A DNA stretch of 45,809 nt from Acholeplasmataceae bacterium (GCA_012841865.1 DUTX01000108.1:1-45809), one strand, 5' to 3'. Counted from the stretch's first letter, positions 1,460 to 42,546 are shown. The notes: generated by a model from the letters alone, not told the origin. Numbers and translations: made by a program.

Positions 1460-3073
1460 TCATCTAAATAATCTTAATATATCATTAAATGTAACAATAA
1501 CCATCAATCCCAGTAAAAGGACCATCGTTACCGAAATCAGAACCGTTTCTACTTTTTGACTCGGTTTTTTCTTGGTTACGGCTTCATAGCCTAAAAACAA
1601 TAAACGCCCGCCATCAAGCGCCGGTATCGGAAAGAGATTCAACAAGCCGACATTAACGCTTAAAAGTCCCATCCAATTGAGGAGGCTAGCGAAACCGCGG
1701 GAAGCTACTGTTTTTGTCATATCAAAAATACCCACAGGTCCGCTTAAAGCAGCGATTGTTACCGATTCTTCGCTGAAAAGAAGCGCAAGAGTATCAAAAA
1801 CCGCAGTAAATGAATTTCCGGTTCTTCTAAAACTGTAAAGCATACTCTTACCTAAATGAAATTCATTTTTAGGTGCAACTCCCATTACTACATCAACAAT
1901 CTCAATCGGTTCTCCGCTACCAGTTTTCTGCGTTTCCATTATTCTTTTACTGTAAGGCTTAACAGCAATGTCTTTTGTTTCAGAGCCGCGCAGAACTGTA
2001 ATCGATAAGCGGTTTAAACTATCGTCATCGTTATTGCCTCGGTAGTTTCTGATAGCTTCATACATTTCAGGAAGCTTATTAAAACTTTTGCCTTCAACAG
2101 CAGTAATGATGTCTCCCTTTTTCAAACCGGTATTATTGCTCATTTTATTATTTTCATAATAAACTTTTTCAATTTCAATACCTGCTTCTGTAAATCTTCC
2201 CTGAACACCGATATTATAAAAGATAACTAGAGGATTTACAGAAATATTGTTATCCTCGTTATTACGTTTATAGGTGATTTCAATCGGATTGGTAATGGCA
2301 AGGGTGGTATAATTATCCATAAAGGTTGAGATATCAGCCCAAGTTTTTACTTCTATTTCATATGTTCCGCTCTTCAAACGAACAATTTCATCTCCGTCTC
2401 GAAGCCCGGCAACATAAGCAGGTTCATCTTTTAATTCATCCATTCCGGAAAGAATATTTTTATTGCTCTGAAAGCCAGTAATAAGGCCAGCAATAAAGAA
2501 TACTAGCAAAGCCAAGAGAAAGTTCATCAAAGGGCCGCCAAACATAACCATCGCCCGCGCGCCTTTGCTTTTTGAGCCCAGGGTTCGGTTATAAGGAGCA
2601 ATTTGATACTCCAGTTTTGATTCATAAATTACAGCCTGCGGATCAACCCGATGATATTGATATTCTCCCTCATATCGGGTTTCCATGAATAATGTTCCCG
2701 TCTCTTTCTCATCAAATAAGTCATAATTGATGATGTTATGAACCGGATAATTTATTTTCGGATCATCTACATTTAAATATATTCCTTTGATGACATCATT
2801 TTCAATCTGCAACTTAACACGCCTGATTTTTTCAAAAGGATCAGTCTCCAATTCTTCTCCCGCGATTGCACAAAAACCGCCGATTGGAAATGCTCTTAGG
2901 GTATAAAGTGTTTCTCCTTTCTTTTTCTTGAGAAGAATCGGCCCCATGCCGAAAGCATATTCACGGCAGAGAATATTTACTCTTCTTGCGAAAAAGAAAT
3001 GCCCAAATTCATGTACGGCAATAATTAAGCCAAGTACAAATACAAAAGCCAAAAAGCCAATTAAATAATCCAT
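1460..3073 (-). CDS. rseP: Site-2 intramembrane zinc metalloprotease (RseP/RasP)
   Basis: Cleaves transmembrane segments such as anti-sigma factors and remnant signal peptides. The first membrane segment holds the HEFGH zinc motif (residues 21-25), a PDZ-like domain lies in the middle, and the C-terminal segment contains the LDG-type ligand motif ([14 protein letters not shown]). At 537 residues it is more than 100 longer than the 420-residue Bacillus RasP. The extra sequence lies mainly between about residues 55 and 160, after [12 protein letters not shown] and before the GGPLMN membrane segment. Its ATG overlaps the dxr stop codon (TAATG), so the two are translationally coupled. If the putative anti-sigma protein at 38455-39138 is controlled by proteolysis, this is the obvious intramembrane protease, but that link is inference. 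Confidence 0.93.
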
Positions 3074-4224: not shown

Positions 4225-5157
4225 CTACCAGGAATAACAAATTTGCAAGATCAAAACAATAATATAATAGACAGCCCCGGAAAAGATCAAACTATCAAAG
4301 CGATCCAATACACCCCCGTGCCCGGGGAAGACATTTCCGAAGTCTTTGATATCATAAGTTCTTTTAATTTTTGAAGCTACGAGATCTCCGATTTGCACGG
4401 TAAAGGAAAGTAACATCGATATCAAGAAAGAACCAACTATGACTAAGATTAGTTCTTTTGTATCCGCAGGATTGACAATCCTAAATACAAAGGCAGCAGC
4501 AACACCAAATAAGCTACCGGCGATGAGTCCGGCGATTGCGCCTTCGACAGATTTTTTTGGGCTAATTTCCGGACACAATTTTCTTTTTCCGAATTTTGAA
4601 CCAATAAAATAAGCAAAAATATCAGTCAGAGCGACAATCGTGTAAAGATAACCAAAACTTCTGCCTCCGCGAAAAAAGATTAAACCGTTTGCATCGGGGA
4701 AGGGTTCTAAGAATCTGATATTAATTACAAACCCCATTACTAAACCACAATAAGTCAGGGTCAAAACTGCTGCCATCATGTTGTTTGCGGAAGAGTTTTC
4801 AGTAAAAACTGTATAACCCAAAACAAAAATAACATAAGCGATAAACAAACCCATAGTCAGCAAATGATAAACCGTATTGGCATTTGTTGGATCGCTAATA
4901 TCTAATCCTTGCGTTGTCGCAAGATAAATCGTATAAACCAAAGAACCACTCATAAACGGAATCAGATAACGAAGGCGTCCGATTGTCGGGTATCTCTGGT
5001 AAAATACATTTATCATTTCATAAGAAGCAATTATACTGAGAATAATACCGACCGCAAGAAACAGATATCCCACCAAAGGATATGTATGATGATCGATAAT
5101 TATTAAGGGCAACAATACTGAAGCCAGTACGATTGCTGTTATTGTTCTTTTCTTCAT
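4225..5157 (-). CDS. cdsA: Phosphatidate cytidylyltransferase
   Basis: Integral membrane enzyme making CDP-diacylglycerol from phosphatidate and CTP, the precursor used by PgsA (encoded at 43781-44395). Protein of 310 residues with about eight hydrophobic segments. The CDS family signature is complete near the C-terminus: SKIKRTYDIKDFGNVFPGHG followed by GVLDRFDS. The start codon overlaps the uppS stop (ATGA), indicating coupled translation. Slightly longer than the usual 260-280 residues because of extra hydrophobic sequence in the first half. Confidence 0.95.
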   Translation of the reverse strand: MKKRTITAIVLASVLLPLIIIDHHTYPLVGYLFLAVGIILSIIASYEMINVFYQRYPTIGRLRYLIPFMSGSLVYTIYLATTQGLDISDPTNANTVYHLLTMGLFIAYVIFVLGYTVFTENSSANNMMAAVLTLTYCGLVMGFVINIRFLEPFPDANGLIFFRGGRSFGYLYTIVALTDIFAYFIGSKFGKRKLCPEISPKKSVEGAIAGLIAGSLFGVAAAFVFRIVNPADTKELILVIVGSFLISMLLSFTVQIGDLVASKIKRTYDIKDFGNVFPGHGGVLDRFDSLIFSGAVYYIIVLILQICYSW

Positions 5158-5870
5158 TTAATTCCTCCGAATCGACGTTCTCTTCTTTGATATTCAATAA
5201 TTGCTTTTTCAAAATTTTTTGGTCGAAAATCAGGCCAAAGAACATCGGTAAAATATAGTTCGCTGTAGGCAAGTTTCCAGAGCAGAAAATTGCTGATGCG
5301 CACCTGATTGCTTGTCCTAATTAATAAGTCGACATCCGGCAACTCCTGAGAATAAAGATATTGATTAAAATCCTCAAGAGCAATTTCTTTTCTACCTTCC
5401 TTAAGTATATTATTGACGGCATTGATGATTTCATCACGACCTCCGTAATTAAATGCAATTGTAAAGGTTAGGCCTTTGTTTGCTTTTGTTCTTTCTGCAA
5501 CTCTTTCGATTTGTTTTATTAAATCTTCTGCAAGTCTATTTTTAGAACCGACCCAATGTAAACGAATATCTTCGGAAACCATCTCTTCTTCATATTCGTT
5601 AAGAAACTCTTTGGGAAGATTCATTAAATAATTTACTTCTTCTTGGGGGCGTTTCCAATTTTCGGTACTAAAAGCAAAAACAGTCAGATACTTTATTTTT
5701 AGTTTTGCTGCATGGAGCATAATGTCTTTTAATACAATTGCTCCTTTTCTATGTCCGTAATTCCTTGAAAGCCCTCGTCTTCTTGCCCAGGTTCCGTTAC
5801 CGTCCATAATAATTGCAATATGTTTCGGAAGTTTGTCCGGATTTAATTTGTCTTTCATCATTTTCACCAT
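5154..5870 (-). CDS. uppS: Undecaprenyl-diphosphate synthase, two unusual active-site residues
   Basis: cis-Prenyltransferase that extends farnesyl diphosphate with isopentenyl diphosphate to the C55 carrier for cell-wall precursors. Overall fold motifs are present (IAIIMDGNG, FSTENWKRP, FNYGGRDEI, LLWKLAYSELYFTDVLWPDF). The family motif DGNGRW reads DGNGTW here, and the IPP-binding stretch normally reading RTSGEQRISNF or similar reads RTSNQVRISNF, so the conserved Glu is Gln. I checked both at the DNA level. A TATAAT on the minus strand (5883-5878) lies almost directly upstream; with a start at 5870 the message would be nearly leaderless, and the ATGs at 5861 or 5858 are alternatives. The gene overlaps cdsA by 4 bp. 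Confidence 0.93.
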   Translation of the reverse strand: MVKMMKDKLNPDKLPKHIAIIMDGNGTWARRRGLSRNYGHRKGAIVLKDIMLHAAKLKIKYLTVFAFSTENWKRPQEEVNYLMNLPKEFLNEYEEEMVSEDIRLHWVGSKNRLAEDLIKQIERVAERTKANKGLTFTIAFNYGGRDEIINAVNNILKEGRKEIALEDFNQYLYSQELPDVDLLIRTSNQVRISNFLLWKLAYSELYFTDVLWPDFRPKNFEKAIIEYQRRERRFGGIK

Positions 5871-5877
5871 TTCATAT

Positions 5878-5883
5878 ATTATA
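5878..5883 (-). promoter_or_regulatory. Possible -10 box for uppS-cdsA-dxr-rseP-proS
   Basis: TATAAT on the minus strand, about 8 bp upstream of the annotated uppS ATG. No convincing -35 box is seen. Because rbr upstream ends in a hairpin, a promoter is expected in this gap. Confidence 0.35.
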
Positions 5884-5954
5884 CAACAGAAGCAGATATT
5901 TTTCTAGATAAATATGAAAAGCAAATAAACATTTAATAAGAATATATCCAAATG

Positions 5955-5983
5955 AAAAAGGGTTCATTGCGAACCTCTTTTTT
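5955..5983 (-). terminator. Terminator after rbr
   Basis: Minus-strand hairpin with stem GGTTC/GAACC (5975-5971 with 5965-5961) flanked by A-rich and T-rich arms (CCTTTTTC). It starts at the rbr stop codon. The stem is imperfect outside the five central pairs. Confidence 0.55.
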
Positions 5984-6518
5984 AGTAATCGATAGTCCTA
6001 AGCTGGAAGTAATCTTGTGGATGCTCGCATACCGGACAAACCTTCGGTGCATTCTTGCCATAGTGGATATGTCCGCAATTCAAGCAAATCCAAACATTTT
6101 CTTCTTCGCGTTTGAAGACGCGGTCCTTTTCCAAATTTTCAAGCAGAGCACGATATCTCATTTCGTGTTCTTTTTCAATCTTGGCAACACCTTCGAAAAG
6201 ATTGGCGATTCTTGTAAAACCTTCTTCTCTGGCTACTTTCGCAAACTCGGCGTACATTTCTGTCCATTCATAATGTTCGCCCGCAGCTGCATCTAGCAAA
6301 TTCACTGCCGTAGTCGGGATGCCGTCATGCAAGAGTTTGAACCACATTTTCGCATGCTCTTTTTCATTATTCGCGGTTTCTTCAAATATTTCAGCTATTT
6401 GTACAAAACCGTCTTTCTTGGCTTGCGAAGCATAAAAAGTGTATTTTGTTCTTGCTTGAGCTTCGCCGGAAAACGCGGTCATTAGATTTTTCTCAGTTCT
6501 TGAACCTTTTAATTCCAT
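5982..6518 (-). CDS. rbr: Rubrerythrin
   Basis: Peroxide reductase of anaerobes, 178 residues. The N-terminal ferritin-like four-helix bundle carries the diiron ligands in the two helix pairs ([34 protein letters not shown]). The C-terminal rubredoxin-like domain has two Cys pairs (CLNCG and CPVCEHPQ) for one iron. It reduces hydrogen peroxide with electrons usually from reduced rubredoxin or NADH oxidoreductases. It lies between frr and uppS, a place with no such gene in Bacillus, with its own promoter, a palindrome over the -10 box and its own terminator, so it behaves as an independent insert in the translation/lipid operon. Strong GGAGG ribosome site. Confidence 0.96.
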
Positions 6519-6561
6519 AATCTTTAATCCTCCTTGTATTTATGGTTATCAAAACCAAGTT

Positions 6562-6578
6562 AGATTATAATATAATCT
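6562..6578. promoter_or_regulatory. Palindromic operator candidate over the rbr -10 box
   Basis: AGATTATA-A-TATAATCT is a perfect 8-1-8 palindrome covering the -10 hexamer of the rbr promoter. Size and composition recall Fur/PerR-type boxes, but the half-site order differs from the usual PerR consensus. A peroxide- or redox-responsive repressor site is a reasonable inference. Confidence 0.5.
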
Positions 6579-6592
6579 GACAAAGAATGCAA
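6564..6592 (-). promoter_or_regulatory. rbr promoter (sigma-A type)
   Basis: TTGCAT (6592-6587), 17-bp spacer, TATAAT (6569-6564) on the minus strand, about 45 bp upstream of the rbr start. Confidence 0.8.
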
Positions 6593-6608
6593 ATTCTTTT
6601 TTGCTTTC

Positions 6609-7166
6609 TTAAATTTCCATTATTAAAACTTCTTTTTCTTTAGCAATCTGATCAACATTTTCAGTAAACTTATCGGTAAGTTTCTGAATTTTATCCGTTT
6701 CGCGTTTGAGTTGATCTTCGGATATTTCGCCATCTTTTTCTAATTTCTTCACTTGGTCAATCATTTCCCGACGAATATTCCGAATCGAGACTTTTGCATT
6801 TTCTGCATAACTCTTTACTTCTTTAACTAATTCTTTTCTTCTTTGTTCTGTTAAAGCTGGAAAATTAATTCTGATTACATTTCCGTCATTAATCGGAACT
6901 AAATTCAGATCAGCCAAATGGATTGCTTTTTCAACATCCTTCAGAATGCTCTTATCGAAAGGTTTAATCATAATAGTTTGTGCTTCCGGAACAGAAATCG
7001 AAGCAATTTGATTCAAGGGTGTCAAAACTCCGTAATATGTTACCTGAACACCGTTTAATATCGCAGGATTGGCTCTCCCGGTCCTAACCAAGCTGAGTTC
7101 ACTTCTGAAAGCCTGAATGGTCTTATTCATTTTCTCTTCTCCGAGATTATAAATGTTTTGAGGCAT
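6609..7166 (-). CDS. frr: Ribosome recycling factor
   Basis: Splits post-termination ribosomes together with EF-G. Protein of 185 residues with the characteristic SLVRTGRANPAILNGVQVTYYG start of domain I and the C-terminal helix RREMIDQVKKLEKDGEISED. Length is the family norm. It lies 18 bp after pyrH, in the conserved rpsB-tsf-pyrH-frr order. AAAGGA ribosome site. There is no clear terminator between frr and the rbr promoter, so some read-through into rbr is possible. Confidence 0.97.
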   Translation of the reverse strand: MPQNIYNLGEEKMNKTIQAFRSELSLVRTGRANPAILNGVQVTYYGVLTPLNQIASISVPEAQTIMIKPFDKSILKDVEKAIHLADLNLVPINDGNVIRINFPALTEQRRKELVKEVKSYAENAKVSIRNIRREMIDQVKKLEKDGEISEDQLKRETDKIQKLTDKFTENVDQIAKEKEVLIMEI

Positions 7167-7184
7167 TTCACATATATCCTTTCT

Positions 7185-7901
7185 TTATATTTTATTGGAA
7201 ATTAGGGTTCCGATCGAAAAATCATTTACCGCTTTCGCAATATTCCCTTTTACATTCATATCAAAGACAAAGATGTCGATGTTATTTTCTTTACATAAGG
7301 TTGCGGCAGTAAGATCCATTACATTTAAGTGTTTGTCTAAGACTTCCTGATGGGTGAGTTTGGTGTACTTTTTCGCATTCTTGTTTATGCGTGGATCGGA
7401 GTCATAAACTCCGTCAACACCGTTTTTTGCCATCAGGATTAGATTTGCGCCTAACTCGGCACTTCTTAAGGCCGCCGTTGTATCGGTAGTGAAGAATGGA
7501 ATACCGTTTCCGCCGCCAAAAATTAAAATTCTGCCTTTGTCTAAATGCGACAAAGCTTTTCTGCGAATATAAGGCTCTGCCACTTCCGGTATCGACAAGG
7601 AGGTCATACACCTAGTTTCAAGATTAAGGCGTTCCAGGGAGTTTTGAATCACAAGCGCATTTAATATCGTTGCTAGCATTCCCATATAATCGGCGCTCGA
7701 TCTTTCCATACCTGATTCCAAAGCATCACGTCCGCGCCAAATATTTCCAGCACCGACTACAATCGATATTTCTACATTCCCCTGATCATATAAAGCTTTA
7801 ATCTCATCGGCTATATCGTTAACCTTAAAATGGTTGATGCCAATTCTTTCATCCCCAGCTAAAGCCTCCCCACTTAGTTTTAACACTATTCTTTTTTTCA
7901 T
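7185..7901 (-). CDS. pyrH: UMP kinase
   Basis: Amino-acid-kinase-fold enzyme phosphorylating UMP to UDP, feeding pyrimidine nucleotide pools; 238 residues, normal length. Motifs: LKLSGEALAG at the N-terminus, GAGNIWRGRD, the UMP-site region SADYMGMLATILNAL, GGGNGIPFFTTDTTAALRS, and the ATP-site DGVYDSDPR. Separated from tsf by a hairpin that may lower its expression relative to the ribosomal genes. AAGGAGGTCAC ribosome site is strong. Confidence 0.97.
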   Translation of the reverse strand: MKKRIVLKLSGEALAGDERIGINHFKVNDIADEIKALYDQGNVEISIVVGAGNIWRGRDALESGMERSSADYMGMLATILNALVIQNSLERLNLETRCMTSLSIPEVAEPYIRRKALSHLDKGRILIFGGGNGIPFFTTDTTAALRSAELGANLILMAKNGVDGVYDSDPRINKNAKKYTKLTHQEVLDKHLNVMDLTAATLCKENNIDIFVFDMNVKGNIAKAVNDFSIGTLISNKI

Positions 7902-35212: not shown

Positions 35213-35959
35213 TTATTGTAAATCTTTAAACAATTCATCTCCCACTAAAAACTCCAAGATTTTTTCCGTTGGGATTGCTCCTCCGTTTACAAATTCCTCT
35301 TCTGAATCCTTAGCACTTGGAAACCCCCAGGTATTAAGTCCAACAATTTCGCCATCTTTATTAATCAGCATCCCGCCGCTGCTTCCTTGTTTAATGATTG
35401 CATTATGGAAGATAATCTCATAATCAACTTGCTCTGCTTTTTTGTATTCCAAAATTTTGCCTGCGGTAATAATATTTTGTTGACCGGAAGGACTGCCAAC
35501 TGAAAAAACAATATCGCCTACTTCGGTATTTGTGTCGGAAAAAGAAGCGGTATGGTATTTTTCTTTTGAATTAAACCAAAGAACGGCAAGATCTGCTCCT
35601 TCCGACACCATATAGAGATTTCCTCGATAGACATTTCCGTTGATATCTTCAATCGTATAGCGATGTTGGTAATGATCATCAAGTCTAACCACATGCTTGT
35701 TTGTAAGAACATAATAATCACCACCAGATTGATAAAAGACGGCGCCGCTTCCGGAACCTTTATATGGCCCCGGTGTTTCAAATATCAAAAAATCATCATA
35801 TGTTTCCGTAGTGATTTTTACATTTGCGGATAAAATGACCGTACTGATGTGATTGAGCGTCTCAATATCAATCTGGTCGTTAGTAAATAGATTCTGAAAA
35901 CCACATCCGGAAAGAAGAGATGTAAAAAGTATTAGAATAAAAAGCAAATATTTTTTCAT
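35213..35959 (-). CDS. Trypsin-like serine protease, lipoprotein
   Basis: 248 residues. A lipoprotein signal peptide with LLSGC lipobox (Cys about residue 19) should anchor it outside the membrane. The chymotrypsin fold has TNKHVV (His about 89), SEGADLAVLWF (Asp) and QGSSGGML (Ser), plus GGAIPTEKI as in DegP-type proteases. There is no PDZ domain, unlike HtrA. It starts 2 bp after the stop of the acetyltransferase gene (TAATTATG), so is co-translated with it. Likely an envelope quality-control or signalling protease; the target is unknown. Confidence 0.86.
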   Translation of the reverse strand: MKKYLLFILILFTSLLSGCGFQNLFTNDQIDIETLNHISTVILSANVKITTETYDDFLIFETPGPYKGSGSGAVFYQSGGDYYVLTNKHVVRLDDHYQHRYTIEDINGNVYRGNLYMVSEGADLAVLWFNSKEKYHTASFSDTNTEVGDIVFSVGSPSGQQNIITAGKILEYKKAEQVDYEIIFHNAIIKQGSSGGMLINKDGEIVGLNTWGFPSAKDSEEEFVNGGAIPTEKILEFLVGDELFKDLQ

Positions 35960-35961
35960 AA

Positions 35962-36531
35962 TTATCGCCAACTATTTTCGTAAATCCTTTGAAAATACTC
36001 GTCATCTGTTATTGCATAACAATCAATATCCTTAATTGTTCCGTCATAGTTAAGATAACCTTTTCTTTTCAAACCTTCATAGGTAAGACCTATCTTTTCA
36101 CAAACCCTTCGTGATTGAATATTGCTTGGAAATGTCATACATTCGATTCTTTTCAAAAGCAATTTTTCAAATCCCCAAGAAATGACCTTTTTTGATGCTT
36201 CGACGGCTATCCCTCTGCCCCAATATTCGGGGTTAATGGTATAACCTAGTTCCGCTTTATGATTTCGAACATAGGAATGCAACTCAATCGTCCCGATCAT
36301 TTTATTGTTTTCTCGCCAAATGATTGAAAAAACTCCTAATTGACCGTATTTCTTTTTTCCTTGGAAGAGTCTGATGACAGCTTTGGTTTCGCTTAAAGAA
36401 ACATGTGGTTGCCAACCAGCATTCGGACCGACCATCGGTAACCTGGCATATTCATACATATCAGAAGCATCATATTCTTCTATTTCCCTGAGCAATATTC
36501 TCTCTGTAATAAGTACCGGCAACTTTTCCAT
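35962..36531 (-). CDS. GNAT acetyltransferase, RimJ/RimL-like
   Basis: 189 residues, acetyl-CoA-dependent N-acetyltransferase. RILLREIEEYDASDMYEY at the N-terminus, the acetyl-CoA binding part AELGYTINPEYWGRGIAVEASKKVISWGF, and SRRVCEKIGLTYEG are the standard RimJ/RimL pattern. Substrate unknown (protein N-terminus or small molecule). Transcribed from its own promoter with the serine protease downstream. Confidence 0.88.
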   Translation of the reverse strand: MEKLPVLITERILLREIEEYDASDMYEYARLPMVGPNAGWQPHVSLSETKAVIRLFQGKKKYGQLGVFSIIWRENNKMIGTIELHSYVRNHKAELGYTINPEYWGRGIAVEASKKVISWGFEKLLLKRIECMTFPSNIQSRRVCEKIGLTYEGLKRKGYLNYDGTIKDIDCYAITDDEYFQRIYENSWR

Positions 36532-36950: not shown

Positions 36951-37727
36951 TTATTCTATCACATTGATAATGTCGATATTTGCCGCTTTTTTTGAATTTT
37001 CATCAATCTCAACCAAAATTGCACTAAATTGAGTTTGTCCGGTGTTTTGGGGAGAGAATCTTTGCATTCCGTCATTCAAATAACGGTCAATGATGATTTC
37101 TTTCTTGACACCGATGACACCTTCTAAAGCTCCGGTCATCCCCACATCAGTAATATAAGCAGTCCCCTTTTCAAGTATGCGCGCATCATTGGTTTGAACA
37201 TGTGTATGGGTTCCAAAAATTACCTGTATTTTCCCGTCAAAAGCATAAGCAAAGGCGATTTTTTCGCTTGTCGCTTCACCGTGAAAATCACAGATATATA
37301 TATCGCTCTTCACATTATCCAAAACTTCCTGAGCTGCCTTAAAGGGATCATAATTGTCTTGATTCATAAAGACCTTACCTATAACTTGTAATACGGTAAT
37401 TTTTAATCCTTTAAGGTTATTTGTCGTATAACCTTTTCCGGGCGAGCCTGCAGGAAAATTATAGGGTCTGACGATATTATTAACATCATCTATAATATTA
37501 AAAAGGGCTTTGTTATGGTAGGCATGATTGCCGAGGGTAATGACATCAACACCTTGATCCATATACCAGCGATAATGATTCTCATTCATACCGCGTCCAT
37601 GGGAAGTGTTTTCGCCGTTTACTATAATGAAATCAATTTTTTCTTTTTCTTTGATTTTTTTAACGTTTTTCTCAAAACTTGTCCGCCCAAGTTTCGAGAA
37701 AACATCTCCAACAATTAATATTTTCAT
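36951..37727 (-). CDS. ymdB: YmdB-type metallophosphoesterase
   Basis: 258 residues. Dimetal phosphoesterase with GDVFSKLGR, VNGENTSHGRGM, LGNHAYHNK, DFHGEATSEK and FGTHTHVQTND, covering the metal ligands. In Bacillus YmdB hydrolyses 2',3'-cyclic nucleotides and affects biofilm and late adaptive behaviour. It is normally transcribed after rny; here rny is 3.2 kb away because of the inserted sigma/protease module, and ymdB has acquired or kept its own promoter. Confidence 0.95.
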   Translation of the reverse strand: MKILIVGDVFSKLGRTSFEKNVKKIKEKEKIDFIIVNGENTSHGRGMNENHYRWYMDQGVDVITLGNHAYHNKALFNIIDDVNNIVRPYNFPAGSPGKGYTTNNLKGLKITVLQVIGKVFMNQDNYDPFKAAQEVLDNVKSDIYICDFHGEATSEKIAFAYAFDGKIQVIFGTHTHVQTNDARILEKGTAYITDVGMTGALEGVIGVKKEIIIDRYLNDGMQRFSPQNTGQTQFSAILVEIDENSKKAANIDIINVIE

Positions 37728-37848: not shown

Positions 37849-37854
37849 TATAAT
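37849..37854 (+). promoter_or_regulatory. Possible -10 box for the ECF sigma module
   Basis: TATAAT 70 bp upstream of the sigma factor start, with only a weak -35 (TTTCTT, 17-bp spacer). The operon might instead use its own ECF-type promoter, which I cannot identify. Confidence 0.35.
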
Positions 37855-37871
37855 AATTTCGACAAAACATA

Positions 37872-37911
37872 ACCCCATATTCGTTTTATTGACGAAGGGG
37901 TAATCTTTTTT
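37872..37911 (+). promoter_or_regulatory. Attenuator-like hairpin ahead of the ECF sigma gene
   Basis: ACCCC and TTCG (37872-37883 region) pair with CGAA and GGGGT (37893-37901), with a 3-base bulge, followed by AATCTTTTTT. It lies between the possible promoter and the gene. The ACCCC arm could also pair with the AGGGGAT ribosome site at 37914-37920, so either transcription or translation of the sigma gene could be controlled. Confidence 0.45.
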
Positions 37912-37924
37912 CTAGGGGATTACT

Positions 37925-38458
37925 ATGAAAGAAAATTACTTGCTTCAGCGTGCGCTAGAATCTAATAACGAAAATAAGATCGAGCATGCTTTTGAAACCA
38001 TATATAATAAATATTCAGGACTTCTGCTCTACATTTCCCTCACTATTGTAAAGCGCCGGGAAATTGCGGAAGAAATTGTCAATGATACGTTTTTGAAGTT
38101 CTTCAATAATATCAGAAAAATTGATTATACGAAGAACATAAAGTATTGGTTGGTAAGAACAGCAAGAAACGCATCTTTTGATTATTTGAAGTTGAAAAAT
38201 AATCAAGTTGAGCTTGCCAATGATATTATTATGAGCACATGTGATGATCGAAAAAACATTGATTATCATGATTTTGTTGCTAAATTTAAAACTTTTTTAA
38301 GTGAAGAAGAGGTAAATATCGTTGTTCTCCGATTAATATACAAGTGTACTTTTAAAGAGATAGCACAAGAAAAGAACGTATCAGTAAATGTTATTTCCGG
38401 AAAATACAGGCGGAGTCTTGAAAAAATCAAAAAACATTATAAAGGGGAATGGTTATGA
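37925..38458 (+). CDS. ECF-type RNA polymerase sigma factor
   Basis: 177 residues with the two-domain sigma-70 ECF layout. Region 2 (about residues 20-85) contains LLYISLTIVKRREIAEEIVNDTFLKFFNNIRKI; region 4 (about 115-175) contains FLSEEEVNIVVLRLIYKCTFKEIAQEKNVSVNVISGKYRRSLEKIKKHY, a helix-turn-helix for the -35 box. No extra domains. First gene of a three-gene plus-strand unit set between ymdB and rny, against both. Its TGA stop overlaps the ATG of the membrane protein (ATGA), the classic sigma/anti-sigma arrangement. Confidence 0.9.
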   Translation: MKENYLLQRALESNNENKIEHAFETIYNKYSGLLLYISLTIVKRREIAEEIVNDTFLKFFNNIRKIDYTKNIKYWLVRTARNASFDYLKLKNNQVELANDIIMSTCDDRKNIDYHDFVAKFKTFLSEEEVNIVVLRLIYKCTFKEIAQEKNVSVNVISGKYRRSLEKIKKHYKGEWL

Positions 38459-39138
38459 GGGTAAGTCTAGCAAAGTTTAAAGAGGATTTTAACGAAGCTT
38501 TTGATAATAATCTTAGTTATGAACAAATCAAAGACAAGGTTATTATAACTAAAAATTTTAGCAGAAGCAGATTTTTGACACAAAGATTTAAGTTTGTAGC
38601 CATCTTTTTTCTAATTGCATTGCTGGGAGGTGTTTTCTTGATGGTAGCAACAAACAAAGTAATTTATCGGGACAATGAAGACGTAATAGTAAACTTTTTT
38701 AATGTAGAAGAAGTAGTCGGTTGGGCAGATAATGTTTTTATTGCACAAGTAGAGCAAAAAATGTATACCAAGCAATATGACGGAACCGGTCAGCATATGC
38801 CCTATACTTATTATTCTCTCACAAATATTAACTATTTTAAAGGTGAAGGAGATAATACCGGTAAACTCTTATTTTATGGCGGTTATGACTTTCTGAATAA
38901 CTTAATAGTGTTCTCCGATAATGACACTCTGCCAGAAGCAGGAGAATATTATATTTTTATAGTCAGAAAAGTAACTCCTTCAAATAGCAATTTGCGTGCT
39001 GAACCTAATTCGTTTTATGTACAAAGCAAAGGACAAATGCTTTTGTTGAACGGATATATTCCGGATAGACCAATTCAAGAACAATCCAAAGCAAATCAAA
39101 AAATAGTAAAACCCTATTTACAAGCACTTGAAAAATGA
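38455..39138 (+). CDS. Single-pass membrane protein, putative anti-sigma factor with sensor ectodomain
   Basis: 227 residues: a 45-residue cytoplasmic N-terminus (MRVSLAKFKEDFNEAFDNN), one membrane helix (about 47-66), and an ectodomain of about 160 residues. The ectodomain (WADNVFIAQVEQ, YDGTGQHMPYTYYSL, FKGEGDN, LLFYGGYD, LPEAGEYYIFIV) is homologous to the N-terminal part of the protease encoded next. The layout of a beta-rich domain with an adjacent 'KG' turn and 'G-E-Y-Y-I-F' strand recalls NTR/TIMP-like folds, which is an inference. Role as anti-sigma factor is inferred from gene overlap and topology; no known anti-sigma motif is visible. I choose the ATG at 38455 (AGGGG 7 bp ahead), not the one at 38449. 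Confidence 0.75.
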   Translation: MRVSLAKFKEDFNEAFDNNLSYEQIKDKVIITKNFSRSRFLTQRFKFVAIFFLIALLGGVFLMVATNKVIYRDNEDVIVNFFNVEEVVGWADNVFIAQVEQKMYTKQYDGTGQHMPYTYYSLTNINYFKGEGDNTGKLLFYGGYDFLNNLIVFSDNDTLPEAGEYYIFIVRKVTPSNSNLRAEPNSFYVQSKGQMLLLNGYIPDRPIQEQSKANQKIVKPYLQALEK

Positions 39139-39164
39139 TATATTAATTTTATGGGAGGTTAAGT

Positions 39165-40580
39165 TTGAGAAAATTAAAAATAAATAAAATTTTTACATTT
39201 ATCTTTTTTATTGCTTTTAGCTTATTAAGTTCTACAATTACCCTTAATGCGCTAGATAATACTGAGCGGACAAGCTATTTGCAGCCTGATTATTTTAGTG
39301 ATTTAGAAAATACTGAAGATTTAATTGGTTTATTTGATTATTGTTTTGAGGGTATGCTTTTCAAGCTTGAAGGAGTATCCCAATATAACGGAAACGGCAC
39401 TGATATTCCTTATACTTTCTACAGAGTGAAAGTTACAAAAAAAGTTAAAGGGATAGTTGATAATCAAGTAATCATTAAATTTTACGGTGGTTACAATGAA
39501 GAAGGAGAATTGATTCTTCCTGAAAATGCAACAATGCCAGAAATCGGAGAGATTTATACATTCTATTGTAATCGCACAAAACTGAATTATAAAGATGATC
39601 AAAGAACGATTGACGGAAGTTATATAATTAGCAGCCCAGAATGTATTGTAAAGGGGCATTACCAAGAAAAAAATGAAGTTCCTGCTGAAAATGAAACAAT
39701 AAACATTGATAAGCCGATGATTCCAAAAACTTTTTTCTATCGGGATGAACTTGAGTTTAGTATTCTAAGTTTTAGCGATCCTTTTCTAGAAGCATCAATC
39801 ATTTCACTAAATACAACATACAAGTTTAAACTTTACGGTGATAACCCTAGATATTTTAAAATTAAACGCGATACTTTAGATTATCTAGCATTTTATTCTA
39901 CAGGAGATTTCGATGTAAAAGTGTCTGTCTATGATGAGTACTTAACTTTAGTAGGGACTAACGATGATGTCAACACCTCGAGAGGATATTTATATACATC
40001 TGGTTACAATTTTTTCTTTCATTTTTATGCTGATAAAAACAGCACATATTATTTTAAAGTCAGCACTTATAATCCCAATGCAAGCGACTCTACAACTATT
40101 AAATGTGTAGTTGATAATTATTATGAATCTGATTATTCAAAATTAATAAACAGCAAACATGCTGTCAAAAATGAATCAATTTATTATGATAACCAGACAA
40201 GTTATTCTTACTATATTTCAATGAGTGCTGCGGAATGGAATAAGCTTAACACGATTCAACTTCGCCATTATAGCACCAATACAAGAAAAGATGTAACCAT
40301 TTATACCTATAACGATCCTGATACTACTACTCTCGCTTATACCAACAAACATTGGTTATTCGGATGGCGAGTTTATTACAATGACTATTATTTTAGCACC
40401 ATGAAAGCGTCCGAAAGATTCAAAACCATAATGCATGAGTTTGGTCATTTATTAGGTTTTGATGAATTCAATGGTCCAGGTTACGGCGAATCAAACAATA
40501 ATGTTATGGTTCAAGGAATGAGAGGACTTTATAATTTAGGTCCAGCAGATATTGCAGTTTACAGGCAAAGATGGGGGTAA
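39165..40580 (+). CDS. Secreted zinc metalloprotease with sensor-like N-terminal domain
   Basis: 471 residues. Signal peptide with hydrophobic core FTFIFFIAFSLLSSTITL and likely cleavage after LNA. Residues about 45-165 are the domain shared with the upstream membrane protein (YNGNGTDIPYTFY, VKGIVDN, KFYGGY, MPEIGEIYTFY). A beta-rich middle follows (about 190-330; DFDVKVSVYDEYLTLVG looks like a bacterial pre-peptidase C-terminal type domain). The C-terminal catalytic part has HEFGHLLGFDE (His424, Glu425, His428) and a downstream Met in NNVMVQGM, a metzincin-like pattern in which the third zinc ligand position is Glu (434) with Asp just before it, not His. Start is TTG with GGAGG 6 bp ahead. 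Likely output or regulator of the sigma system. Confidence 0.82.
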   Translation: MRKLKINKIFTFIFFIAFSLLSSTITLNALDNTERTSYLQPDYFSDLENTEDLIGLFDYCFEGMLFKLEGVSQYNGNGTDIPYTFYRVKVTKKVKGIVDNQVIIKFYGGYNEEGELILPENATMPEIGEIYTFYCNRTKLNYKDDQRTIDGSYIISSPECIVKGHYQEKNEVPAENETINIDKPMIPKTFFYRDELEFSILSFSDPFLEASIISLNTTYKFKLYGDNPRYFKIKRDTLDYLAFYSTGDFDVKVSVYDEYLTLVGTNDDVNTSRGYLYTSGYNFFFHFYADKNSTYYFKVSTYNPNASDSTTIKCVVDNYYESDYSKLINSKHAVKNESIYYDNQTSYSYYISMSAAEWNKLNTIQLRHYSTNTRKDVTIYTYNDPDTTTLAYTNKHWLFGWRVYYNDYYFSTMKASERFKTIMHEFGHLLGFDEFNGPGYGESNNNVMVQGMRGLYNLGPADIAVYRQRWG

Positions 40581-40583
40581 TAT

Positions 40584-40609
40584 AAAGAGGTGTTTTCACC
40601 TCTTTTTTT
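40584..40609 (+). terminator. Terminator of the sigma/protease module
   Basis: AAAGAGGTG / CACCTCTTT hairpin with TTTT loop and a 7-T run, just after the protease stop codon. Confidence 0.9.
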
Positions 40610-40882: not shown

Positions 40883-40928
40883 GACAAAAAGAGGCTGTAA
40901 CCTCTTGAGTAGGTAAACAGCCTTTTTT
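40883..40928 (-). terminator. Terminator after rny
   Basis: GGCTGT / ACAGCC hairpin (40922-40917 with 40898-40893) with an 18-base loop, followed by TCTTTTTGTC on the minus strand. Confidence 0.65.
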
Positions 40929-42546
40929 ATTTCGCAACTTCATGTACCCGGGTTTCTCTAATAACAGTAACTTTAATTGTTCCGGGATAATTAAGATTAT
41001 TTTCAATTTTCAAACGTATATCGCGCGCTAATTTGTGAGCTTCAACATCATTGATTTCTTCCGGTTTCACAAGTATTCTAATTTCGCGACCGGCTTGAAG
41101 AGCATAGGATTTTTCCACGCCTTTAAATTCATTACAAATTTCTTCAAGCTTAGTTAATCGTTTGATGTAATTTTCTAAGGATTCGCTGCGCGCACCTGGT
41201 CTTGCTGCTGACATAGTATCGGCAGCTGCAACCAATTGTGAGATAATAGTTGTCGATTCGCGATCGCCATGGTGTGAACCAATAGCGTCAATTACGGTTG
41301 GATGTTCATGAAATCTCTGAGCAAGTTCTAAACCGATATCAACATGACTTCCTTCCATTTCCGAATCGGCAGCTTTTCCGATATCATGCAACAAACCCGC
41401 TCTTCTGGCGAGGTTTTCGTTCGCACCAATTTCGGCAGCCAATTTTCCAGCTAAAAATGCAACTTCCATGGAATGAGCTAAAGCGTTTTGTCCATAACTT
41501 GTACGATATTTCAATCTTCCAATTAATTTAACTAGTTCAGGATGAACTTTTCCAATGCCGGTTTCAAAGACAGCTCTATCTCCGGCTTCTCTTAATTCTG
41601 TATCAATTTCTTTCTTATATTTGTTAACCAACTCTTCGATTCGTGACGGCTGAATTCTTCCGTCAGCGACCAAGGTTTCCAAGGTTCTTCGGGCAATCTC
41701 TCTTCTGATTGGATCAAAACAAGACAGTACGACTGCCTCGGGCGTATCGTCAATAATAATATCAACACCGGTTGTGGCTTCGATCGTTCTTATATTTCTT
41801 CCTTCTCGACCGATTATTCGGCCCTTCATTTCGTCATTAGGTAAGGGGACGACCGAAACTGTTTTTTCAGCAATAACATCACCTGCGTATTGTTGAATCG
41901 CATTTGCCAGTAGACTTTGGGCTTTGCGTACAGATTCGGTTTTTGCTTTTTCTTCCGCTTCCTTAATTATGGCAGCGATTTCCAAAGACATTTCCTCTTC
42001 CACATGTTCTAGAATGATTTTTCTGGCTTCATCAATGGTCAAACCAGAAACTTGAAGTAATTTTTGAGTTTGCTCTTCTATTAATGCATCCACTTTGCTA
42101 TATTGTTCTTCTAGTTCTATTTTACGTTCATCTAATGCCTGTTCTTTCTTGCTTAACAATTCTTCACGTTTATCTAAATTAGCACTTCTATAATCTAAAC
42201 GCTCTTCGCGTTGAGATAATTTTTGTTCTAATTCATTAACAGCACGTCGTCTTTCTTTAACTTCACGTTCTACTTCTTGTTTTAAAGTCCGGAGTTCTTT
42301 CTCGTTTTCTTGTTTTAAACGAAAAATCTCCTGTTTGGTTTCTACCAAACTGTTTTTTCTGTTTTCTTCAGCAAGTTTTTTTGCATCTTCTATCAATTTT
42401 GAAGCACTTTTACCTGCCTTTTGATAGTTCTTATTGAAAAAATAATAACCAAGTCCAAATCCTAATAATATAAGCAATATGGATGCAATAACATAAATTG
42501 CAATTTGATCGAAACCGGCCAATATCAATAGGTCGATTTCTTGCAT
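40927..42546 (-). CDS. rny: Ribonuclease Y
   Basis: Membrane-anchored endoribonuclease that starts mRNA decay; 539 residues. N-terminal membrane helix ([22 protein letters not shown]), long coiled coil (about 50-190, rich in Glu/Lys/Arg), KH RNA-binding domain ([27 protein letters not shown]) and HD catalytic domain ([20 protein letters not shown]). In Bacillus it is followed by ymdB; here a divergent module separates them. Own sigma-A promoter. Confidence 0.96.

Follow-up and report, generated by a model that had tools for sequence, protein, structure and literature searches.

Described systems and the locus under study

The secreted metzincin Mtz of Listeria monocytogenes cuts Tim, a membrane-anchored TIMP-like lipoprotein. 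The cut takes off approximately 50 N-terminal residues of Tim and sets the TIMP-like part free, and the cell wall is affected (Boichis et al. 2021, PMC8235301). Tim was described as a substrate, not an inhibitor; Mtz-Tim-like pairs were noted in further Firmicutes, many of them on mobile elements, the authors proposed that some are controlled by Agr, and the paper makes no mention of sigma factors as regulators (PMC8235301). In this study, a three-gene unit was analysed in a stretch of 45,809 nucleotides (nt), referred to as the window, from an Acholeplasmataceae bacterium (GCA_012841865.1, DUTX01000108.1:1-45809). The unit encodes an extracytoplasmic function (ECF) sigma factor, a single-pass membrane protein that is a putative anti-sigma factor (the sensor), and a secreted protease, the last two having in common a domain with a predicted netrin/TIMP-like (NTR) fold. 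It resembles Mtz-Tim in that the gene of a secreted metzincin adjoins that of a membrane-associated TIMP-like protein. The Listeria system differs in having no sigma factor, a cI/Cro-like switch in control and a lipoprotein as the partner, whereas here the NTR domain is carried by a transmembrane protein and the protease bears an NTR domain of its own. The metzincin and NTR profiles built in this study matched a Listeria pair (L103), which need not be the 10403S locus of the published work, with E values of 5.6e-24 and 2.9e-26. The two-gene metzincin/TIMP-like pair has thus been published already, and the present unit can be viewed as such a pair rewired into an ECF sigma switch.

Three other described systems share features with the unit. 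RsiV, the single-pass anti-sigma partner of the ECF factor sigma-V in Bacillus subtilis, binds extracellular lysozyme through its outer domain, and the sigma factor is released by stepwise site-1 and RasP proteolysis (PMC6066255); the lysozyme sensed by RsiV is foreign, and signal peptidase makes the cut, whereas in the present unit the enzyme gene belongs to the operon and the outer domain is NTR-like. In Clostridium thermocellum, the outer glycoside hydrolase domain (GH10) of the anti-sigma factor RsgI6 is 57% identical to the secreted xylanase Xyn10D, the promoter of which is recognised by sigma-I6, and the sensing domain is thus also found on a secreted enzyme of the regulon (PMC4711584). 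That system differs in its sigma-I family factor, in polysaccharide-binding or glycoside hydrolase domains, in an enzyme gene outside the operon and in having no protease. The KLIKK proteases and potempins of Tannerella forsythia are likewise secreted proteases with specific inhibitors encoded alongside (PMC7296668); the inhibitors are Bacteroidota lipoproteins without a sigma factor, and the likeness is one of arrangement. Animal matrix metalloproteases (MMPs) and TIMPs are alike in the predicted fold of both partners and unlike in that the Cys-x-Cys N-terminus is absent here and sequence similarity is at noise level.

The combination of a sensor and a secreted protease with the same domain had been called unfamiliar in the original prediction, which was made from the sequence of the window. 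Domain sharing between sensor and enzyme (RsgI6/Xyn10D, PMC4711584) and the metzincin/TIMP-like pair proved to be known, and only the combination with an ECF sigma factor held up as unfamiliar: an open-access literature search returned no paper joining ECF sigma, NTR sensor and metzincin. As far as checked, the ECF sigma wiring and the second TIMP-like domain fused to the protease look new.

Organization of the unit and the encoded proteins

The unit occupies 37925-40580 on the plus strand, in the order ECF sigma factor, membrane protein and secreted zinc protease, and ends in one terminator (Table 1). The sigma stop codon and the sensor ATG share 4 nt (ATGA, 38455-38458). This layout, as originally predicted, agreed with the open reading frames (ORFs), the modelled membrane helix and the terminator, and both flanking genes were named by Pfam as expected, with ymdB (minus strand, 36951-37727; PF13277, E 9e-93) on one side and rny (minus strand, 40927-42546; RNase_Y_N, E 8e-48) on the other. 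The window is contig C72 of an assembly of 1.95 Mb in 189 contigs, estimated to be 98% complete.

The sigma factor matched Sigma70_r2 (E 9e-11) and Sigma70_r4 (E 2.5e-5) of Pfam above the cut-off, and sigma70-ECF (TIGR02937) of NCBIfam (E 1e-17; 64.2 bits, cut-off 42.9). With 177 residues and sigma2 and sigma4 regions only, it has the composition expected of an ECF factor (approximately 170-200 residues). Identities to homologues were 74% (genome G001), 35% (G272) and 32% (G005).

An AlphaFold model of the sensor as a single chain, built from 21 related sequences (mean predicted local distance difference test, pLDDT, 86), contained one transmembrane helix at residues 40-68. Pfam and NCBIfam scans of the sensor gave no usable match and no recognised anti-sigma domain; an RsgI-type system was not indicated, the sigma factor being of the ECF type and no RsgI domain being matched in either collection. 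The cytoplasmic segment contains a motif, [YF]xxIK(D/E)K[VI] or more generally [YF]xxI(K/E)(D/E)K, in the window, G001 and G005, with IEEK in G272, and the motif was not seen in a relative from G012 whose gene has no adjoining sigma factor. This segment may therefore bind and hold the sigma factor.

The domain common to sensor and protease

When the whole of its own genome was searched with the sensor, the only matches were itself and the N-terminus of the protease (29% identity, E 1.2e-13), the common domain lying within the first 160 residues of the latter. Because the search returned only these two proteins at such an E value, the likeness is not due to chance, and the shared domain claimed in the original prediction was borne out.

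Foldseek searches with the modelled sensor domain gave agrin NtA (1.5e-5), TIMP-1 (8.8e-5) and TIMP-2 (1.5e-4), the TIMPs being in MMP complexes. All 15 of the 15 matches with E<=1e-3 were agrin NtA, TIMP, complement (C3/C4) NTR or PCOLCE NTR, with template-modelling scores of 0.41-0.67 normalised to the compact targets. The N-terminus of the protease model also matched agrin NtA (E 4.2e-4). Agrin NtA is a laminin-binding NTR domain, and MMPs are the class of enzyme inhibited by TIMPs. On these models, the shared domain is of the NTR type, with the oligonucleotide/oligosaccharide-binding (OB) fold and the netrin/TIMP topology predicted for it. A profile of 21 sensor-family proteins placed TIMP-2 first among 177,635 PDB sequences, a weak match (E 0.09-0.3) starting at TIMP-2 residue 6 and running through the A-B loop; PDB sequence searches with single proteins gave no match. 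Since the TIMP-2 match was lost once the more distant Actinomycete sequences joined the NTR profile, the TIMP assignment rests on fold, not sequence. The sensor is not a TIMP proper: TIMPs have disulfides and an N-terminal Cys-x-Cys with a free amino group, the latter defining their inhibition, whereas the sensor is without Cys and its domain comes after a membrane helix.

The protease has a hydrophobic N-terminus, the extended zinc motif of metzincins (Table 1) and a Met-turn-like sequence, NVMVQG, at 40500-40517. Foldseek on the catalytic domain, modelled with a pLDDT of approximately 90 in the core, gave snapalysin (4hx3, 7e-6), karilysin (4in9, 3.4e-5) and MMP-12 (4h49, 6e-5), and the predicted fold is that of a metzincin. 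Neither Pfam nor NCBIfam named a family for the protease. Glu occupied the third zinc-ligand position in the window, in G001 and in the copies from Clostridia; G272 had Asp there, and a homologue from an Exiguobacterium plasmid had His. The protein is thus not a strict M10 matrixin, Glu replacing the third-ligand His and no Pfam M10 match being found; the zinc protease of the original prediction gained a metzincin fold, with a third ligand position departing from that of classical matrixins.

Recurrence of the unit in other genomes

A match to the sensor was found in 9 of 395 genomes of the class. The complete trio was present in three genomes, namely that of the window, the congeneric G001 ('Acholeplasmatales bacterium DTU067') at the same locus, and G272, from another family, at a different locus. 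In G272, the sigma factor, the sensor (4-nt overlap) and the protease lie between rpsD and tpiA, with a frame break between the NTR and catalytic parts of the protease. A sigma factor with an overlapping sensor gene and no adjoining protease was found in G005 (overlap 4 nt), G060 and G115, and the sigma/sensor overlap was seen altogether in six genomes of several families. A tree of the sigma factors gave no resolved clade of those linked to sensors, and in the third congeneric genome, G002, ymdB was not found. Homologues of the three genes, proposed earlier to form a unit, therefore do not occur only separately, and the trio is real, conserved and specific. Behind the sigma and sensor genes of G005 (L061 3753-5305), two related single-pass surface proteins were observed, which by eye are BspA-type leucine-rich-repeat-like.

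In G001, the sigma gene was intact and the sensor frame was broken right after the cytoplasmic part. Approximately 540 nt comprising the sensor end and the protease start were inverted, and approximately 190 nt of the protease were gone (L012 9985-10525 and 11030-11100). Phase variation through the inverted segment was considered and rejected. Because no notable inverted repeats flank the segment and approximately 190 nt have been lost, a rearrangement with loss, or misassembly, is likelier, and the state of the trio in G001 is more probably one of decay or misassembly.

In G056, two paralogous loci (L036 5424-6507 and L037 4711-5773) encode a DNA-binding LytTR regulator and, directly behind it, a membrane protein that bears the same NTR-like domain. 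The NTR domain, found on membrane proteins linked to both ECF and LytTR regulators, is therefore a signalling ectodomain to which more than one type of transcription regulator has been joined. Even on a conservative reading, a TIMP-like domain has been recruited as a bacterial signalling ectodomain and coupled to ECF sigma factors, and to LytTR regulators in G056.

Metzincin-NTR pairs beyond the trio

The protease alone was searched against 85,000 genomes, and a plasmid collection was also searched. The genome search gave, in addition to G001 and G272, a single locus from Clostridia (L048), in which the gene of an NTR-less protease is followed 34 nt on by that of a membrane NTR protein within an agr-like locus. 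Searching the latter against Clostridia led to a second genome (L069) with a broken metzincin gene directly upstream. In the plasmid collection, a metzincin gene was directly followed by an NTR gene in Exiguobacterium, Planococcus, Niallia, Listeria, two Rhodococcus and one Gordonia record; a pair was also found in Streptomyces, with a weaker score. Adjacency of the two was thus seen at no fewer than nine loci (at least nine, besides the window), and in Clostridia, Bacilli and Actinomycetes it occurred without the sigma factor. Searches with the protease alone reached NTR neighbours in L048 and the Exiguobacterium plasmid, and searches with the NTR alone reached protease neighbours in L069, Rhodococcus, Gordonia, Niallia and Listeria. 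Because searches from either partner reach the other, this is strong evidence for a functional metzincin-NTR pair. A phylum-wide search with protease profile A3 gave weak partial matches only, the sensor as query had no match among the plasmids, and no match was found in the phages searched.

In the tree of NTR domains, the sigma-linked sensors fell on one side and the protease-linked NTRs, both fused and adjacent, on the other (support 86/92), and a recent local NTR duplication within the genus was rejected (p 0.036). Thus, as judged from sequence comparison, the trio seems to combine an old protease/NTR pair with a distinct lineage of NTR-bearing, putative anti-sigma factors. The NTR domain family appears to be much wider than the cases studied. 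If the reading of the unit proposed below is right, a probable fold and partner would be given to a protein family that has no name so far and that is spread over Gram-positive bacteria and their plasmids.

Several side observations were made on these pairs. The L048 pair (4309-7528) lies between two near-identical AgrD-like peptide genes of the agr-like quorum-sensing locus. Gordonia plasmids L098, L104, L105 and L106 carry an NTR-like lipoprotein gene without an upstream metzincin, and on Gordonia plasmid L099 the metzincin and NTR genes have overlapping start and stop codons. Two nearby lipoproteins with distant NTR-like domains were observed in G605 (L070 3685-4296 and 5079-5750).

Proposed mechanism and alternatives

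A model is proposed in which the sensor is an anti-sigma factor released by proteolysis. Its cytoplasmic part of approximately 42 residues would hold the sigma factor; the secreted protease would recognise the NTR domain of the sensor and cut the short stalk between membrane and domain, as Mtz cuts Tim, which would be the site-1 cleavage; and an M50 protease would then cut within the membrane and free the sigma factor, which might in turn transcribe its own operon. The protease's own NTR domain would most likely serve in latency or as a competitor for the same surface, so that what the switch signals would be the presence of active protease at the cell surface. An M50 site-2 protease is indeed encoded in the same window (Table 1). 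We prefer this model tentatively and regard its chance of being correct as somewhat short of even. Should it be true, it would join bacterial counterparts of the MMP/TIMP system with ECF sigma release. The site-1 protease of ECF sigma systems is usually a housekeeping enzyme; here the activating protease would be both secreted and encoded in the operon of the sigma factor. More doubtful is the extension that site-1 cleavage of the anti-sigma factor, with which it has a domain in common, is the dedicated task of the protease. The operon would then encode its own trigger from outside, through which extracellular proteolysis would be read by the ECF sigma factor as an autocrine or population signal. 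In the original prediction, the protease or the domain in common was inferred to act either as a relay of the signal or as its competitor; this idea became more plausible and more specific with the TIMP/NTR-like domain, the metzincin fold and the Listeria cleavage precedent (PMC8235301).

Several points weigh against release by this protease. The units of G005, G060 and G115 show that an adjoining protease is not required for this type of sensor, and in G001, unless misassembled, the trio is dispensable, with the protease disrupted and the sensor frameshifted. The shared domain is without the free Cys-x-Cys of TIMPs, the separation in the NTR tree is moderate, and the orientation of the NTR domain to the catalytic domain is unreliable in the protease model (predicted template-modelling score 0.43). 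What was shown in Listeria relates to a lipoprotein and to phenotypes of the cell wall rather than to transcription.

The main rival, a common-ligand model that we consider unlikely but deserving of attention, is sensing as in RsgI systems: both NTR domains would bind one target outside the cell, be it a component of the wall, of a matrix or of a host, and the protease and sensor would never touch, the sensor reporting the target, the sigma factor turning on the protease, and the NTR domain of the protease bringing the enzyme to the target. The best structural match, the laminin-binding agrin NtA, is in line with this, as are the sigma-sensor units without protease and the occurrence of the NTR module by itself in many proteins, as well as on membrane proteins linked to LytTR regulators, as expected for a ligand-binding domain. 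The logic is known from RsgI6 GH10/Xyn10D of C. thermocellum (PMC4711584), but it leaves unexplained the stand-alone NTRs beside NTR-less metzincins (L048, L090, L091, L101 and L103) and the cleavage of Tim in Listeria (PMC8235301). Those stand-alone genes, present next door where the protease has no fused NTR, would suit a true metzincin inhibitor, acting as a latency domain in the protease and as a captor of stray protease on the sensor; occupancy of the sensor, not cleavage by this protease, would then change sigma activity, like lysozyme on RsiV. The predicted TIMP fold, the known pairs of secreted protease and specific inhibitor (KLIKK/potempins, PMC7296668) and RsiV as a receptor for an enzyme (PMC6066255) agree with inhibition or immunity of this kind. 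We nevertheless hold it to be improbable, the inhibitory N-terminal Cys of TIMPs being absent, the domain being preceded by a membrane helix or linker, and Tim having been described as a substrate, not an inhibitor (PMC8235301).

A further reading gives the membrane protein no anti-sigma role: the sigma factor would be controlled through transcription of its own gene, and the surface genes would simply share its transcript. This would accord with the failure of Pfam and NCBIfam to recognise an anti-sigma domain, with the housekeeping-type -10 upstream and with the similar unit of G005 followed by other surface proteins. The sigma/sensor overlap in six genomes of several families and the absence of the cytoplasmic segment from the sigma-less G012 relative speak against it, and we give it little credence. 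A chance neighbourhood of unrelated genes is scarcely credible: the sensor is matched in only a minority of the class genomes, but the shared domain is specific and the trio is found again in G272, a genome of a different family, where the locus is an unrelated one, and this explanation was rejected on that recurrence.

Coordinates and other features

Upstream of the sigma gene of the unit, an extended -10-like sequence was noted, followed by a candidate leader hairpin of which, by sequence comparison and folding, the outer arms are kept in G001 and the inner stem is not; the hairpin could be a leader element of the unit.

Table 1. Features of the window, in nucleotide positions counted from its first letter
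Feature	Position	Strand	Basis or remark
Extended -10-like TATAAT (TGTTATAAT), 5' of the sigma gene	37849..37854	+	Consensus only; present in the sister genome too
Possible 5' untranslated region hairpin, ACCCC...GGGGT, after the promoter-like sequence and before the start codon of sigma	37872..37901	+	Sequence comparison and fold; weak
ECF-type sigma factor, regions 2 and 4 only, 177 aa	37925..38458	+	ORF, Pfam, NCBIfam, homologues
Single-pass membrane protein, putative anti-sigma factor, 227 aa	38455..39138	+	Alternative start at 38449 gives 229 aa
Sensor cytoplasmic segment, ~42 aa, proposed sigma-binding part	38455..38580	+	Conserved motif
Sensor extracytoplasmic netrin/TIMP-like (NTR) domain, predicted	38671..39048	+	AlphaFold model and Foldseek
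Secreted metzincin-type metalloprotease with N-terminal NTR domain, TTG start, 471 aa	39165..40580	+	ORF, AlphaFold, Foldseek
Protease NTR/TIMP-like domain (second copy)	39282..39659	+	29% identity to sensor; agrin NtA match
Protease beta-rich middle region, PPC-like by eye only	39822..40110	+	Without Pfam match; low AlphaFold confidence
Protease catalytic domain, predicted matrix-metalloprotease/snapalysin fold	40170..40577	+	Foldseek
Zinc-binding motif HEFGHLLGFDE (HExxHxxGxxE)	40434..40466	+	Sequence; aligned in G001, G272, L048, L069
Intrinsic terminator of the unit	40584..40605	+	9 pairs, loop of 4, T run
Peptidase M50 (RseP/RasP-type site-2 protease), outside the operon	1508..3049	-	PF02163, E 2.3e-57

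A gene for a trypsin-like serine protease with a lipoprotein-type signal was also observed near the unit, on the minus strand of the window at 35213-35971.

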